In this document: positions 3,213-43,012 of the stretch, piece by piece
How positions within the stretch are numbered: the first letter of the stretch is position 1
Layout: each line of letters opens with the position of its first letter
Source of the DNA: an uncultured Lachnospiraceae bacterium
GTDB lineage: Bacteria > Bacillota > Clostridia > Lachnospirales > Lachnospiraceae
DNA length: 55,316 nucleotides
Reading direction: 5' to 3'
Assembly (NCBI GenBank): GCA_902760755.1
Contig: CACWHK010000028.1
Location: 1 to 55,316 of the forward strand
The notes under the pieces: model-generated
What the model saw: only the letters and a program-made list of their open reading frames with translations
Databases searched by the model: none
What the model was told of the DNA's origin: nothing
Program-made: the position numbers and the translations under genes

Positions 3213-3778
3213 AAAAAAAGCCGCCTCCTTTTCGCACTTTTGTAAGTAGTACGACAAGCGGTGACTGTACAACGTTCCCGTGTGTGTCGTGCCTGGACCC
3301 ATCAGATCGAAGGCTCTGGCCTCTCCTTTTATTAAGGAAATGATCCTGCCTTCGTACCCTTTCCGGTCTTGCAGTCTACCAGGAGGATTCAGCCTGGTTT
3401 TCCACGGTGCCGGGTGTGTCCTGAACTTGAGCCTACAATACAACTATTCGCTATCCCTTTCAGCAGCCATTCACCCGCGCTTTCAGCGCGTCTGTCGCTG
3501 CTTCGCAACTTCTTATGGCTGCGAAAAGGGATGTTCCTGCTTTGCAGGACACATGAGAACGACTGAGCCCCCATGTGCAAGCACGGGGACTCACTCGTTC
3601 CCATGCGTTTGCGAATAGTTAACTGTCCACACGTCATTTCCGGATTCCTCCGGATGATTATTGGTACAGTGACTTGTCGTCAGTTTCTCTGAACTTGACA
3701 TTCGCTCCACGAAATAACCCATAGACTGTCGAACGCGTCTATGGCAACCTCCGCTTCCACGCTATCAACGTCACAGCA
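3213..3778 (-). promoter_or_regulatory. Long structured 5' leader of the S10 operon
   Basis: If transcription starts about 7 nt after the -10 box, the leader is roughly 565 nt long. It contains strong inverted repeats. One is at 3565-3592 (GAGTCCCC..GGGGGCTC, about 11 pairs including wobble), one is CGCGC/GCGCG near 3477-3490 nested in a longer CAGCCAT/ATGGCTG pairing, and one is CCATAGAC/GTCTATGG near 3719-3745. No convincing protein-coding frame is present. In E. coli a shorter S10 leader is bound by L4; whether this one is analogous is inference. Confidence 0.55.
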
Positions 3779-20629: not shown

Positions 20630-21367
20630 TCACTCTTCTGCTGTTTCCGCTGCTCCCGTCTCCTCGGACGCTCCCAGCAGCTGGTAGATCCGGCCCTTAC
20701 CGTCTTCGAAGTAGCCTTCCACGATGGCACGGAAGCGGTCCGTGGGATAGAACCGGTCTTCCACTGCCAGGAAGAGCTTCTCTCCCTGCAGGAAGTTCAT
20801 GGTCAGCTTTACAAAGCCCATGCGGGATCCTCGGCTGGCCTTATTCCGGTCCTTATCTTCGTTGGTCATCAGAGGGAGCTCATGCCAGAGCAGCGCCACG
20901 GAGCGGAAGCCTTCCTGCTCTGCGGAGGTCTGGTTGAAGACTTCGTTCTCTTTCACGATCTGCTCCGCTGCCTGACTTACCAGCTGCATCAATTCTTCGA
21001 GGCGGACGTATTCCTTCACCTGGTAGGTGGCGGAGTCCGTGTAGAAGAAGAGCAGGGCCTGGTACATGATAAAGTAGACCAGGTAGAGCTCGCGGTTTCT
21101 GCGAAGGCCGAGGATCCGCTTCAGGTCGTCGTTGGTGTAGCCGAAGACTTTGTTGCCTTCGCCGGCGGTGACGAAGAGGGTTTCGTTGTATTCGTAGACG
21201 GAAATGTTCAGACGGGCGAGGAGCTTCGTAACCAGCTCATAGACTTCCGCGTTCGCGTAGTACGACTGGTAGAGCTCCGAAGTGCCGGGACGGTTTTTAG
21301 AGATTTCGTCGCCGGACATCAGGATGCTGAATATTTCCATCGCTTTTGAGAGTATTTTTTCTTCCAT
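20630..21367 (-). CDS. Wadjet JetB-like / MksE-like condensin subunit
   Basis: The 245-residue protein lies between the kleisin-like and SMC-like genes, the place of JetB/MksE in Wadjet and MksBEF operons. It is predicted all-helical and winged-helix rich (YELVTKLLARLNISVYEYNETLFV, then YTNDDLKRILGLRRNRELYLVYF). The C-terminus is acidic. No catalytic motif is seen, as expected for a kleisin-binding KITE protein. Its weak ribosome-binding site (AAAAGGACT, about 14 nt from the ATG) lies 19 nt after the end of the 171-bp structured element, which may control its translation. Assignment rests mainly on context and size. Confidence 0.72.
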   Translation of the reverse strand: MEEKILSKAMEIFSILMSGDEISKNRPGTSELYQSYYANAEVYELVTKLLARLNISVYEYNETLFVTAGEGNKVFGYTNDDLKRILGLRRNRELYLVYFIMYQALLFFYTDSATYQVKEYVRLEELMQLVSQAAEQIVKENEVFNQTSAEQEGFRSVALLWHELPLMTNEDKDRNKASRGSRMGFVKLTMNFLQGEKLFLAVEDRFYPTDRFRAIVEGYFEDGKGRIYQLLGASEETGAAETAEE

Positions 21368-21386: not shown

Positions 21387-21557
21387 TTGAGACGGCGCTT
21401 GGTCCTTCGCCACGGCTGCTATTTTCGGGGCCCGGCTCGCGCCTTAGTCATGGGTGCCCCTTGCGGTTCTAAGCTTCCCACTTCGTGCTTCGCACTCGTG
21501 GATTGCTAAGAACCGAGACCCATGATGACCCCGAAAACAGCACCGTGTCCGGACTGG
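21387..21557 (-). repeat. 171-bp structured hairpin repeat, copy 1
   Basis: Near-identical to 40275-40445: the same 171-bp length, no gaps and 7 differences. It folds as one long hairpin. Helix 1 is 21411-21430 with 21529-21547, with one bulged base at 21416. Helix 2 is 21448-21455 with 21518-21525. Helix 3 is 21465-21481 with 21498-21514. The apical GTGC/GCAC stem closes a 3-nt loop. The second copy changes CAT to TTC at 21449-21451 and ATG to GAA at 21522-21524, keeping all three pairs. An A-C mismatch on the plus strand (21421/21538) is a G-U pair on the minus strand, so a minus-strand RNA is favoured. It lies in the jetA-jetB gap. Confidence 0.9.
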
Positions 21558-21668
21558 GCGCGCCTGTAAACAACACGCCTAAATCAAACTTAACCTAAGC
21601 AGCTAGCGCCTCTAATGGTAAAGCGTTAATAATTTACTAGTTATCGTTTAAACTACAAAGAGGGATTA
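21558..21668. other. Remaining jetA-jetB intergenic spacer
   Basis: AT-rich 111 bp between the hairpin element and the JetA-like stop. It has an imperfect inverted repeat around 21622-21654 but no coding frame, promoter or clear terminator that I can support. Confidence 0.4.
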
Positions 21669-23222
21669 TTACTTATTTGATTCTCCACAGGAGAAGGTCA
21701 TGGTACGAACCGTGCCCAAGGGAGTGTCTGTCTCGTCAAACAACTCAACCTCGTCGGAACCATAAGTAATCGTCAGCGTCATGCGCTCGAAGCGGTGTTT
21801 TTCTTCGTCGGTGAAGTGCTTGCCGGCGTAGGCTTCGAGGAAGGTTTCGGGTTCTTCGAAGCTTTCCTTCCAGACGTAGCGGTCTTTCTTCGCCAGGTGG
21901 ACGAGGAAGGCGTAGTAGTCGCGGTTCCGGTAGATCTCTTTGCCGAACTTGATCTCCAGGATGGCGTTGAATTCGGGGAGGGTAACGGTGTCCCAGCGTT
22001 CCAGGCGGCTGAGGAGCTCGCGCAGCAGTCGGACGAAGTTTTCTCCGATCATGCGGCTCAGGCGTTCGTCTTCGTATTCGAAACCGAGGTCCGGGGCTTC
22101 GTGTTCGCGGCGCTCGGTCAGGTCTTCTTCCTCCCGGGCTTCGCTGACCAGCTTATCGATGCTGAAGACGGACAGGGTTTTCCTGCGCCGTGGAAGGAGA
22201 AGCGGGGACAGGATGAGTTCCATCTTCGCGGGATCATCCCGTTCCTGCATGGTCCGAAGGGCGGTAAGGAAGTCAAATGCAGGTCTAAGCTGCCGTACCT
22301 TGGAGCGTTCCACCATTTCATCGGCCATACGAGAGAGGCTTGCGGCTTCTTCCATCAGCAGCCGGTGGCTCTCGATGGTCTTCTTCAGCTCGGTCTCCAG
22401 GTTTGCGATATCCTTTCCGACGCCGGGTGCGCTTTCTCCCGCGGCGGACATTTCCGCGAGCCGGGCAACGGCCTTATCCACCAACGCCTTGTTTTTCCGG
22501 AAGGACTCTCGTTCCTGATCAAACCACTTGGAGATTTCCGCCATGTAGTCCTCGCAGGCGCGGACACCGGCGCGGATATCGGTCCGAAGCAGGGAAACGG
22601 CGGCTTCCCGTTCTTTCCGGAGGCGAAGGACCTCCAGGTTGATCCGGCGTACCACGTCGATTCCACCCCGGAAGTTCTCGGTGCGGATCATCTTTTCCAG
22701 CAGAAGCTGTTCCGTGGTGATCTTGCTTTCGTCTCTTACTTCCTTGGTGGAAAGGTAGAACTCGATCCCGTCCGCGGTGATGCTGTAGGTCACTTCTCCG
22801 TCCCGCACCACGCTTTCCACCAGCCGGACATAGCCCTGACAGCGGGCGTGCTTTTCCGGATCGTAGAAGGGAAAGATAAAGGGTCTTCCGTCATTCCGGA
22901 TCTTATCAAAGAGAAAACGGACCAGCTCTGCTTCCTCCTCCCGGGGAATGGTCAGTTCAAAGTCCCGCCGCAGCACGGCGGTAAGGAACTTCTCCACCTC
23001 CGGATAGGAAACTGTCCGTCCGTTCATCTGGTTTTCCTGGATCAGATACCGAAGCAGGGCCATGGTGATATAGCCCATGTCCAGCTCCTGGAATCTTCCC
23101 TCTTTATACTGGCTGAGTGTGGTTTCCTGTAGCACAAAAAACGGATAGTACTTCTTCAGGTACAGCATCCGCTCCGTCTGATTCTTCAGAATATCGTCGA
23201 TCAGGATATGCTCTTCTGCCAT
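21669..23222 (-). CDS. Wadjet JetA-like / MksF-like kleisin
   Basis: The ATG at 23222 (GGGAGATC ribosome-binding site) gives 517 residues; the frame is open further upstream, but that part overlaps a promoter and a terminator. The N-terminal third looks like tandem winged helices (YITMALLRYLIQENQ, then ITADGIEFYLSTKEV, a MukF/MksF-like segment). The middle is coiled coil (about 190-330), and the C-terminal part is another winged-helix region, as in bacterial kleisins that bridge SMC heads. It resembles the JetA subunit of Wadjet-type operons. It is the first gene of the operon, with its own promoter. Confidence 0.75.
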   Translation of the reverse strand: MAEEHILIDDILKNQTERMLYLKKYYPFFVLQETTLSQYKEGRFQELDMGYITMALLRYLIQENQMNGRTVSYPEVEKFLTAVLRRDFELTIPREEEAELVRFLFDKIRNDGRPFIFPFYDPEKHARCQGYVRLVESVVRDGEVTYSITADGIEFYLSTKEVRDESKITTEQLLLEKMIRTENFRGGIDVVRRINLEVLRLRKEREAAVSLLRTDIRAGVRACEDYMAEISKWFDQERESFRKNKALVDKAVARLAEMSAAGESAPGVGKDIANLETELKKTIESHRLLMEEAASLSRMADEMVERSKVRQLRPAFDFLTALRTMQERDDPAKMELILSPLLLPRRRKTLSVFSIDKLVSEAREEEDLTERREHEAPDLGFEYEDERLSRMIGENFVRLLRELLSRLERWDTVTLPEFNAILEIKFGKEIYRNRDYYAFLVHLAKKDRYVWKESFEEPETFLEAYAGKHFTDEEKHRFERMTLTITYGSDEVELFDETDTPLGTVRTMTFSCGESNK

Positions 23223-23248
23223 GATCTCCCACACACATTCACAAAAAA

Positions 23249-23282
23249 ATATCGTGGACCACCGTAAAGCAGTCCACGATAT
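23249..23282 (-). terminator. Intrinsic terminator of the cell-wall repeat protein gene
   Basis: A perfect 11-bp stem (ATATCGTGGAC/GTCCACGATAT) with a 12-nt loop is followed on the minus strand by seven T residues. It lies between the 1084-aa protein gene and the JetA-like gene. Confidence 0.8.
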
Positions 23283-23311
23283 ATTGTAGCATTTTTCACC
23301 TGCAATCACAA
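23283..23311 (-). promoter_or_regulatory. Promoter of the JetABC-like operon
   Basis: TTGTGA (23311-23306), 17 bp and TACAAT (23288-23283) on the minus strand. Predicted initiation near 23276 falls inside the left arm of the upstream gene's terminator, so transcripts from this promoter would escape that terminator while read-through transcripts would not. Confidence 0.6.
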
Positions 23312-40274: not shown

Positions 40275-40445
40275 TTGAGACGGCGCTTGGTCCTTCGCCA
40301 CGGATGCTATTTTCGGGGCCCGGCTCGCGCCTTAGTTTCGGGTGCCCCTTGCGGTTCTAAGCTTCCCACTTCGTGCTTCGCACTCGTGGATTGCTAAGAA
40401 CCGAGACCCGAAATGACCCCGAAAACAGCACCGTGTCCGGACTGG
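40275..40445 (-). repeat. 171-bp structured hairpin repeat, copy 2
   Basis: Same length as 21387-21557, 164 of 171 positions identical. The changes are C to A at the helix-1 bulge (40304), CAT to TTC (40337-40339) and ATG to GAA (40410-40412); the last two are exactly compensatory. It covers the 3' end of scrB, so the scrB stop codon at 40332-40334 and the last 37 codons come from the element. The orientation relative to transcription is the same as in copy 1. Confidence 0.9.
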
Positions 40446-41924
40446 AATTAGGAACTCTTCCTTCACCGCGGATCGCAGAGTCCAAAGACGCGGGAAGAGG
40501 TCTCCCTCCATACGGAAGTAGTGTTCCGTGTCTTCGGGGAAGACGCGGGTTGTGAAGACGGCATCGCCGTCGTTGACGAAGACTTCCACGGAGCTGCTGT
40601 CGATGAAGATTCGAAGGTGTGAGAGGCCGTGTTCCAGGGGACGGGTCCGATCGGTGCCTTCCTGCACATTGAACTGCTTTCGAAGGCCGCTCCGGTCGAT
40701 GGTGATCTCTTTCTTTACGTCGTTGTAAAGGATGTGCAGTCCGCCTTCGCCTGCTTCGTCGGTAAAGAGGTGTACACGTACATGGCCTGCCCTACAGTCG
40801 AGCTCGAGCTCTGCTGCCTTCGGAAGGTCGCAGCAGCCGTTTACGTTCGGTGCGAGGACGATCTTCTCCTCGCGGAGCTTCTTCAGTTCCGGCAGGGGTT
40901 GCTGGATGAGGCGTCTGCCGCGGACGGTGAGTTCTCTCGGCAGGGTGAGGCACCCGGCCCAGTCTTCCTCGTCCGTGGGATAGCTTACATCCGGCACGCC
41001 CATCCACGCGATGAGCACGGCCTTATCTGCATCCTCGATGTTGTTGGCGCAGGCCGCAGCATAGGAGTCAAAGCCGAAGTCCAGCACATGGAACTGCCCG
41101 TCCGGCGTAAATGTCAGTGTCTCCCAGTCCATGCTTCCCATGATATATCCGTTGTGGTTCTGACTCTCGCCTCGTCCCGGCAGGGTCAGATGCTGCGGGC
41201 AGAGCAGCAGTACATCTCTGCCTCCGATATGCTCGATGGAGGGGCATTCCCACATGTCCCCGAAGGCCTCAAAGCCCGGAACCTTCAGTTCTCCTTCGAA
41301 ATGCCATCCGTGCTGCAGGTCTTCCGACTTATAGATCAGGGCACAGCCGTGTTTCTCTTTGGTCTGGGCCCCGATGATCATGTAATACGTTCCTTCTTCC
41401 ACACCGCAGATGATCTTCGGATCTCTCTGATGCTCGGTGTAGTCCGGGTGGGACCCGAACAAGGGAAGGGGATACTTCTCGGGCCAGCCATCATTTCCGA
41501 GACGGGCCAGGCAGGTATACGCATGGCGGGTCCAGTCGGCATCCCGGTGGTTTCCGGTGTAGTAAAGATAGATCTTGTCTCCGATGGGCATGGCAGAACC
41601 GGAATAGACACCTTTGTTGTCGTAGCCGTCCTCCTGATCCGGGAGAAGGCAGACGCCCAGGTTCTTCCAGGTTACCAGGTCCTTGGAGACGATATGGTAC
41701 CAGTGCTTCAGACCGTGGACAGCGCCCCAGGGGCACCACTGATAGAAGAGGTGCCAGCGGTTATCGAACCACACGAAGCCATTGGGATCGTTCATGAGCC
41801 CCGTGACGGCCTGATTGTGAAATGTCTGGCGATACGTGGACTCCCTGATACGACCATACAGCTCCGTTAATTCCTGCGGATCCCTGAGATACCTATACTT
41901 CTCTTCTCTCGTCCATTCCTTCAT
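40332..41924 (-). CDS. scrB: Sucrose-6-phosphate hydrolase (GH32), C-terminus derived from a repeat
   Basis: Hydrolyses sucrose-6-phosphate made by ScrA into glucose-6-phosphate and fructose. The ATG at 41924 follows AGGAGGGGGG. GH32 motifs: TGLMNDPNGF (nucleophile Asp), RDPKI (transition-state Asp) and WECPS (acid Glu). The C-terminal beta-sandwich ends near residue 490. The last 37 residues (from about the LWTLRSAVKEEF segment onward) are translated from the 171-bp repeat, have an odd composition rich in Arg, Cys and Gly, and end at a stop in the repeat. Activity should be kept because the catalytic domain is complete. It is the last gene of scrA-ptsH-scrK-scrB. Confidence 0.92.
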   Translation of the reverse strand: MKEWTREEKYRYLRDPQELTELYGRIRESTYRQTFHNQAVTGLMNDPNGFVWFDNRWHLFYQWCPWGAVHGLKHWYHIVSKDLVTWKNLGVCLLPDQEDGYDNKGVYSGSAMPIGDKIYLYYTGNHRDADWTRHAYTCLARLGNDGWPEKYPLPLFGSHPDYTEHQRDPKIICGVEEGTYYMIIGAQTKEKHGCALIYKSEDLQHGWHFEGELKVPGFEAFGDMWECPSIEHIGGRDVLLLCPQHLTLPGRGESQNHNGYIMGSMDWETLTFTPDGQFHVLDFGFDSYAAACANNIEDADKAVLIAWMGVPDVSYPTDEEDWAGCLTLPRELTVRGRRLIQQPLPELKKLREEKIVLAPNVNGCCDLPKAAELELDCRAGHVRVHLFTDEAGEGGLHILYNDVKKEITIDRSGLRKQFNVQEGTDRTRPLEHGLSHLRIFIDSSSVEVFVNDGDAVFTTRVFPEDTEHYFRMEGDLFPRLWTLRSAVKEEFLIPVRTRCCFRGHFGSRFLAIHECEARSGKLRTARGTRN

Positions 41925-41954
41925 GCTACTCCCCCCTCCTGTATGAGACGGCAT

Positions 41955-42863: not shown

Positions 42864-42920
42864 TCGCATCCTCCTCATATATGTATTGCCCCCTCGCATC
42901 CGCTCGGCGGCGCGTCGGTC

Positions 42921-42959
42921 GGTGCGATCCCTATGTCATGACTCCGTCATGACCGCACC
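42921..42959. other. Inverted repeat between ptsH and scrK
   Basis: GGTGCG/CGCACC arms around a palindromic GTCATGAC pair, forming a long stem. It may add to the terminator beside it or protect mRNA ends. Confidence 0.45.
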
Positions 42960-42961
42960 TC

Positions 42962-43012
42962 TAAAAAGAGGGCGGCCCCGGGTGTTCAAAACGAACGCTC
43001 CCTGAACCGCCC
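42962..43012 (-). terminator. Terminator-like hairpin after ptsH
   Basis: GGGCGG..CCGCCC arms with an inner GTTC/GAAC pairing, followed on the minus strand by CTCTTTTT. It lies inside the operon and may reduce transcription of scrK-scrB relative to scrA-ptsH. Confidence 0.6.

Follow-up and report, generated by a model that had tools for sequence, protein, structure and literature searches.

Short bacterial repeats have mostly been described as DNA palindromes. As portrayed in the cited passages of PMC10969869 and PMC3049150, ERIC and Correia (NEMIS) sequences are proteobacterial, MITE-like intergenic palindromes of ∼100 to 200 bp that lie in transcribed regions and affect mRNA through RNase cleavage. 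The BOX elements of streptococci, in the corresponding passage of PMC3049150, are dispersed, modular, and noncoding, fold strongly if transcribed, and have ends that are likened to an insertion sequence. REPs are given a length of 20 to 40 bp in the part of PMC3733652 that we cite.

We compared these systems with a repeat found in a stretch of 55,316 nucleotides from an uncultured Lachnospiraceae bacterium (here called the window). Like ERIC and Correia sequences, the repeat is a short, MITE-like intergenic palindrome, but it comes from another phylum, its outer arms differ in sequence from locus to locus, and a GNRA-capped side hairpin branches off at a junction. Like BOX, it is dispersed, noncoding, and strongly folded if transcribed, but BOX follows a boxA-boxB-boxC plan in which the number of boxB units varies, whereas the Lachnospiraceae repeat has a single rod-like core; in both cases, it is the descriptions that set the families apart. 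With REP, BIME, and REPIN sequences it shares inverted doublets, hairpins, intergenic position, and high copy number, but it is longer than REPs, and several copy-rich genomes are without the Y1 transposase of the REP/RAYT pairing. Finally, there is a likeness to UPF0236 sequences, which we take to be of the ISLre2 type, and to their MITEs: in one genome (G002), the element lies inside a UPF0236 insertion sequence of 1,765 bp. However, most element-bearing genomes have no such sequence, and other UPF0236 loci have no element.

We read the repeat as a MITE-like element, dispersed between the genes of Lachnospiraceae, with a predicted transcript that is a defined structured RNA, and we assign this reading a probability of about 0.68. 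The two repeats in the window apparently belong to a previously undescribed family of short dispersed elements; our literature search found no report of such a repeat in Lachnospiraceae, with many subscription papers lying outside the search. With hundreds of copies in one genus and several other Lachnospiraceae genera, the family offers statistical evidence that an RNA fold is kept, and the kept fold carries a named loop motif (GNRA) on one strand. The features of the window that bear on this reading are as follows (by eye where so marked).

21387..21557, minus strand (RNA sense): repeat copy 1, as delimited by the first-pass annotation, blastn, and comparison of copies
21426..21534, minus strand: conserved core of copy 1 (covariance model R1, positions 1 to 105, 110.7 bits)
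21558..21567, minus strand: outer 5' arm of copy 1, ACAGGCGCGC in RNA sense (by eye)
21434..21443, minus strand: side hairpin GGC-GCGA-GCC, with its GNRA tetraloop at 21437-21440
21448..21455, minus strand: compensated-pair helix, 3' strand in RNA sense
21518..21525, minus strand: compensated-pair helix, 5' strand in RNA sense
40275..40445, minus strand: repeat copy 2 (blastn and comparison of copies)
40314..40422, minus strand: conserved core of copy 2 (covariance model R1, 112.1 bits)
40332..41954, minus strand: GH32 gene (Pfam PF00251 and PF08244), with its last 37 codons and stop inside copy 2
20630..21367, minus strand: DUF6063 gene (Pfam), downstream of copy 1 in RNA sense
21669..23309, minus strand: ORF without a Pfam match, upstream of copy 1 in RNA sense

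In RNA sense (the minus strand of the window), the modeled anatomy begins with a long outer stem whose letters are locus specific and which leads to a junction with the short GNRA-capped side hairpin. Beyond the junction, the model predicts a rod of short helices with conserved internal loops between them (a CU bulge of two bases and G/A-rich loops) and a variable apical loop at its tip. The outer 5' arm lies outside the 171 nt originally annotated but is found in other copies of the same genome too. In copy 1, GCGCC at 21560-21564 stands opposite GGCGC at 21394-21398 in the outer stem, as judged by eye.

The two window copies had been annotated as 171 nt each with 164 identical positions, and a recount gave exactly these numbers; the identity breaks off exactly at both ends of the repeat. 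The copies differ at 21416 (C/A), 21449-21451 (CAT/TTC), and 21522-21524 (ATG/GAA). As the first-pass annotation had claimed, six of these seven differences make up three compensated pairs in an 8-bp helix: 21448-21455 pairs with 21518-21525, and the changed pairs (C-G to T-A, A-T to T-A, and T-A to C-G) are Watson-Crick in each copy. When seven random substitutions, assumed to be independent, were placed on the predicted minus-strand fold, at least three compensated pairs arose in 0 of 200,000 trials. The whole copy is predicted to form one long hairpin on either strand. With a few flanking bases, its folding energy was well under that of dinucleotide shuffles on both strands, with a better z-score for the minus strand (−7.46) than for the plus strand (−5.76).

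In the repeat's own 2.58-Mb assembly, blastn gave 23 full or partial matches, and the repeat was found by blastn in 9 of 41 genomes (its own included) and in none of 16 genomes from other families of the order. Covariance model R1, built from 22 copies, matched 45 of the 61 genomes of the genus (E ≤ 0.001), with at most 31 copies in one genome (G003) and 25 in another (G052); copies are about 170 to 200 nt long at many sites. Among 299 genomes drawn over Lachnospiraceae, the model matched 12 (E ≤ 1e-5), namely, the window's own genome and one in each of 11 other genera. Six of 392 genomes sampled over the order matched, all of them Lachnospiraceae, although the share of other families in the 392 was not stated. 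A 22-letter core pattern occurred in 18 stretches of the GTDB genome collection, all from 9 genomes titled Lachnospiraceae, and in no viral contigs. Named isolates that carry the element include AC2029, AC2031, and NE2001. The further copies that the first-pass annotation had proposed to look for thus exist in number, and its remark that it did not recognize a known RNA or mobile family agrees with our Rfam search, which gave no match to the repeat above threshold.

Several known identities were considered and set aside. Rfam 15 gave two matches in the window, both off the repeat. With E values up to 5 at six loci, the sole match overlapping the element was mir-203, at chance level (20.2 bits against a gathering threshold of 65), and a known RNA family was rejected because nothing in Rfam matched the repeat above the gathering threshold. 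The repeat adds an RNA family without an Rfam 15 match. An origin from a phage or plasmid was also set aside, a distant blastn search against phage and plasmid records having given no match, and a tRNA was discounted because the window contains none. We also rejected an intrinsic terminator, as no T run follows the hairpin in RNA sense (judged by eye).

The helices of the fold vary among copies and keep their pairing. Changes on both sides of a pair, in at least one copy, were present at 28 of the 41 predicted pairs when 22 copies were aligned and at 25 of the 33 pairs when 111 distinct copies were. The 111-copy alignment, which was fitted to the model, contained 488 doubly changed cells, against 136 ± 18.5 after shuffling; when the partner column was shifted by 1 to 3 positions, the paired cells fell from 96.4% to 26 to 52%. 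It is important to note that the core counts of double changes, of G-U and A-C pairs, and of GNRA loops come from model-fitted alignments and that the copies were collected with a covariance model, so that the sample leans toward foldable copies. We therefore also used a structure-blind MAFFT alignment of 165 distinct copies, with a FastTree tree and 100 null alignments simulated on it with AliSim. Here, 12 of 5,050 column pairs covaried (E < 0.05); 11 of these coincide exactly with fold pairs, and the last one adjoins such a pair. Individually, 11 of the 33 fold pairs were significant and the remaining 22 were not. The family thus shows more covariation at the predicted pairs than phylogeny explains, in line with a fold conserved as RNA; the first-pass annotation had proposed such a covariation check. 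No significant pair fell outside the secondary structure in this alignment, and hence no receptor for the GNRA loop can be named.

The strand on which the fold is kept can be read from the loop and from the unequal use of wobble pairs. In RNA sense, 155 of 165 copies close the side hairpin with a GNRA tetraloop whose N and R positions vary (GAGA, 62; GCGA, 43; GAAA, 17; GGGA, 13; GGAA, 11; GCAA, 9; others, 10). Core pairs include 365 G-U against 41 A-C; 259 of the G-U cells belong to two nearly fixed U-G pairs, and leaving these out, the counts are 106 and 41. For the stem outside the model, we aligned the arms of 141 copies in a strand-neutral manner. The first 15 nt had 75 G-U and 14 A-C, and the next stretch (15 to 30 nt) had 38 and 32. 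Farther out, the counts were 51 against 52 at 30 to 50 nt and 68 against 80 at 50 to 100 nt, where isolated mismatches lean the opposite way (12 against 25). These counts point to strand-specific selection in the core and proximal stem but not in the distal arms, where pairing may be a matter of DNA. The minus strand had earlier been named as the probable strand of the selected fold; the GNRA loop, the G-U excess in the core and proximal stem, and the sense bias described below bear this out. The DNA hairpin offered as an alternative is disfavored for the core and may hold for the distal arms, where G-U and A-C are equal.

Although the letters of the arms differ from site to site, each copy's arms match each other. 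Across 162 copies, the median match score was 43 for a copy's own arms and 18 for swapped arms, and 91% of the copies scored above the 95th percentile of their swaps. Copies at the same site in different species also differ in arm letters and keep the pairing. Upstream of purH, for instance, two such copies (L159 and L170) have different letters at four of the arm pairs, of which three are compensated and one has become an A-A mismatch (by eye). Sites shared between species are likewise found at tpiA, rmlB, and the V-type ATPase operon.

Both window copies were probably gained recently. Where copy 2 meets the GH32 gene, 11 of 11 relatives have a stop at the junction that ends the gene, and all of them are without the core; the closest of them (G072) has a short core-less derivative beside the gene. 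In the window, that stop is lost and the frame continues for 37 codons into the repeat; the GH32 product of 40332-41954 (minus strand) would thus carry a protein tail encoded by the repeat. At the site of copy 1, the core is absent in 10 of 10 relatives, and one genome (G020) has a copy on the opposite side of the neighboring gene. At the L009 site, the core is missing from all 10 relatives, but one (G017) retains an apparent remnant arm; a clean empty site with a duplication was not obtained there, and we recognized no target duplication at the two window copies. The repeat is short, noncoding, dispersed, and recently gained, in keeping with the term MITE-like. Across species, copies have been both gained and lost.

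Cores within a genome can be nearly identical (98% in G255, 96% in G087, 95% in G116, and 99% in G336), and for the first three genomes these sequence identities suggest recent spread elsewhere too. In G336, where one copy gave 12 matches, two of the near-identical copies have long flanks in common, which may reflect segmental duplication rather than transposition; an autonomous partner in this genome was discarded as an explanation, with no transposase seen. The forms of the repeat in the window's own genome include copies with inserts and core-less ones. Among the latter, L017, L018, and L022 (at about 1501-1560) are short derivatives that retain the outer stem, and L017 and L018 have an insertion-sequence-like right end, CTTGACAGTGRC (by eye).

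To describe placement relative to genes, we used naive gene calls, removed doublets, and merged loci with the same neighbors, which left 87 groups; the count excludes 26 members of doublets, 17 copies that had no flank, and 7 whose flank was distant, and both window copies, each in sense orientation, were added by hand. Between codirectional genes, 43 groups were sense and 15 antisense (P = 0.0003; an earlier unmerged count per locus gave 62 and 31). The other groups lay between convergent genes (11), lay between divergent genes (10), or were mixed (8). The model end of sense copies was a median of 61.5 nt from the start of the next gene. A strict role in mRNA would therefore miss some copies, given the 15 antisense groups among 58 one-sided ones, the 8 mixed groups, and the 21 groups between divergent or convergent genes.

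We looked for an enzyme that might move the element. In G002, the element occurs in ten insertion sequences of ∼1.77 kb that encode a PF06782 (UPF0236) transposase, and it lies between the stop codon of this gene and the right end. Six of the ten are identical or nearly so, four full ones have 9-bp duplications (by eye), and two more copies of the element in this genome are without a transposase. G002 is also the one genome in which the element and an autonomous element were seen to share terminal inverted repeats. PF06782 was found in 11 of the 61 genomes of the genus and in 7 of the 45 that bear the element. It gave no match in the window's own genome, in a search whose control genomes gave none either. 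Mobilization by RAYT/Y1 is not supported, as the presence of Y1 does not track the element. A shared neighboring mobilizer gene was rejected, since clusters of naive ORFs around copies span at most three loci, and those listed resemble conserved housekeeping neighborhoods.

These observations bear on the alternatives. The element could be the 3' untranslated part of the UPF0236 (ISLre2-type) insertion sequence, with free copies as its deletion derivatives, and the ten carriers in G002 and the insertion-sequence-like right ends of L017 and L018 would suit such an origin. We nevertheless consider it very improbable, as PF06782 gave no match in 38 of the 45 element-bearing genomes of the genus (several of them incomplete assemblies) or in the window's own genome, and the element is missing from 11 of 11 UPF0236 loci in other genomes; that one insertion-sequence lineage captured the element in G002 fits better. 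Another alternative is a DNA-level palindrome of the REP/REPIN kind, in which a transposase recognizes a single-stranded DNA hairpin and template switching or gene conversion maintains the pairing of the arms. Of 14 pairs of copies less than 400 nt apart, 12 are inverted 5' to 5', 2 are tandem, and none are 3' to 3', like REP doublets. G-U equals A-C in the distal arms, and many pairs switch Watson-Crick type without a wobble (e.g., GC 54, AU 49, and UA 8 at one of them). Yet PF01797, the Y1 transposase, gave no match in 8 of 24 genomes, including copy-rich ones (G016, G052, G255, and G336), some of which are nearly or fully complete (G052, 25 copies, 99% complete; G255, 13 copies, 100%; G336, 6 copies, 100%), and the GNRA loop, the near-core G-U excess, and the sense bias indicate RNA. 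We therefore regard this explanation as unlikely.

The sense bias and the location just upstream of start codons, together with the sites common to several species at purH, tpiA, rmlB, and the V-type ATPase operon, could be taken to mean a conserved cis-regulatory RNA (a leader or riboswitch-like element) that controls particular operons. We give this scarcely any credence, because a single genome can have as many as 31 copies, next to genes that are unrelated, one of the three tpiA sites (L169) has the reversed orientation, and relatives are without the element at both window sites. A mobile RNA domain is a further, tentative idea. Here, the unit of selection would be an RNA tertiary fold, formed by the GNRA side hairpin and the conserved internal loops and recognized by a protein or RNA of the cell, while the arms drift as long as they pair; dozens of operons would thereby have acquired the same site for processing or binding between their cistrons.

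Under the preferred reading of a MITE-like element with a structured transcript, copies would enter new sites as DNA, through the UPF0236/ISLre2-type insertion sequence in one genome and through another enzyme elsewhere, and would be cotranscribed in leaders and between the genes of operons. The self-contained hairpin, predicted to stop a short way upstream of the next gene's ribosome-binding site, may keep the copies harmless or useful. By analogy with Correia and ERIC sequences, a double-strand RNase might process the long double-stranded arms and split the mRNA into segments. Transcription, RNase cutting, and relevance to the host are thus suggested by position, by strand, and by the ERIC, Correia, and BOX literature. 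The repeat is a testable case of selfish repeats turning tolerated or useful in the operons of major gut and rumen bacteria.

Some minor observations concern neighboring sequences. In G115, two copies in the same sense (L104 and L112) lie 201 nt apart, the sole close tandem besides a looser one in L086. The window also contains a match to GA-cis RNA (RF02987) at 42878-42966 on the minus strand (68.5 bits) and one to the S10-Clostridia ribosomal protein leader (RF03136) at 3674-3767 on the minus strand (63.8 bits). In G002, two tandem matches to the c-di-GMP-I riboswitch (L032, 1784-1869 and 2096-2186) adjoin a copy of the insertion sequence.
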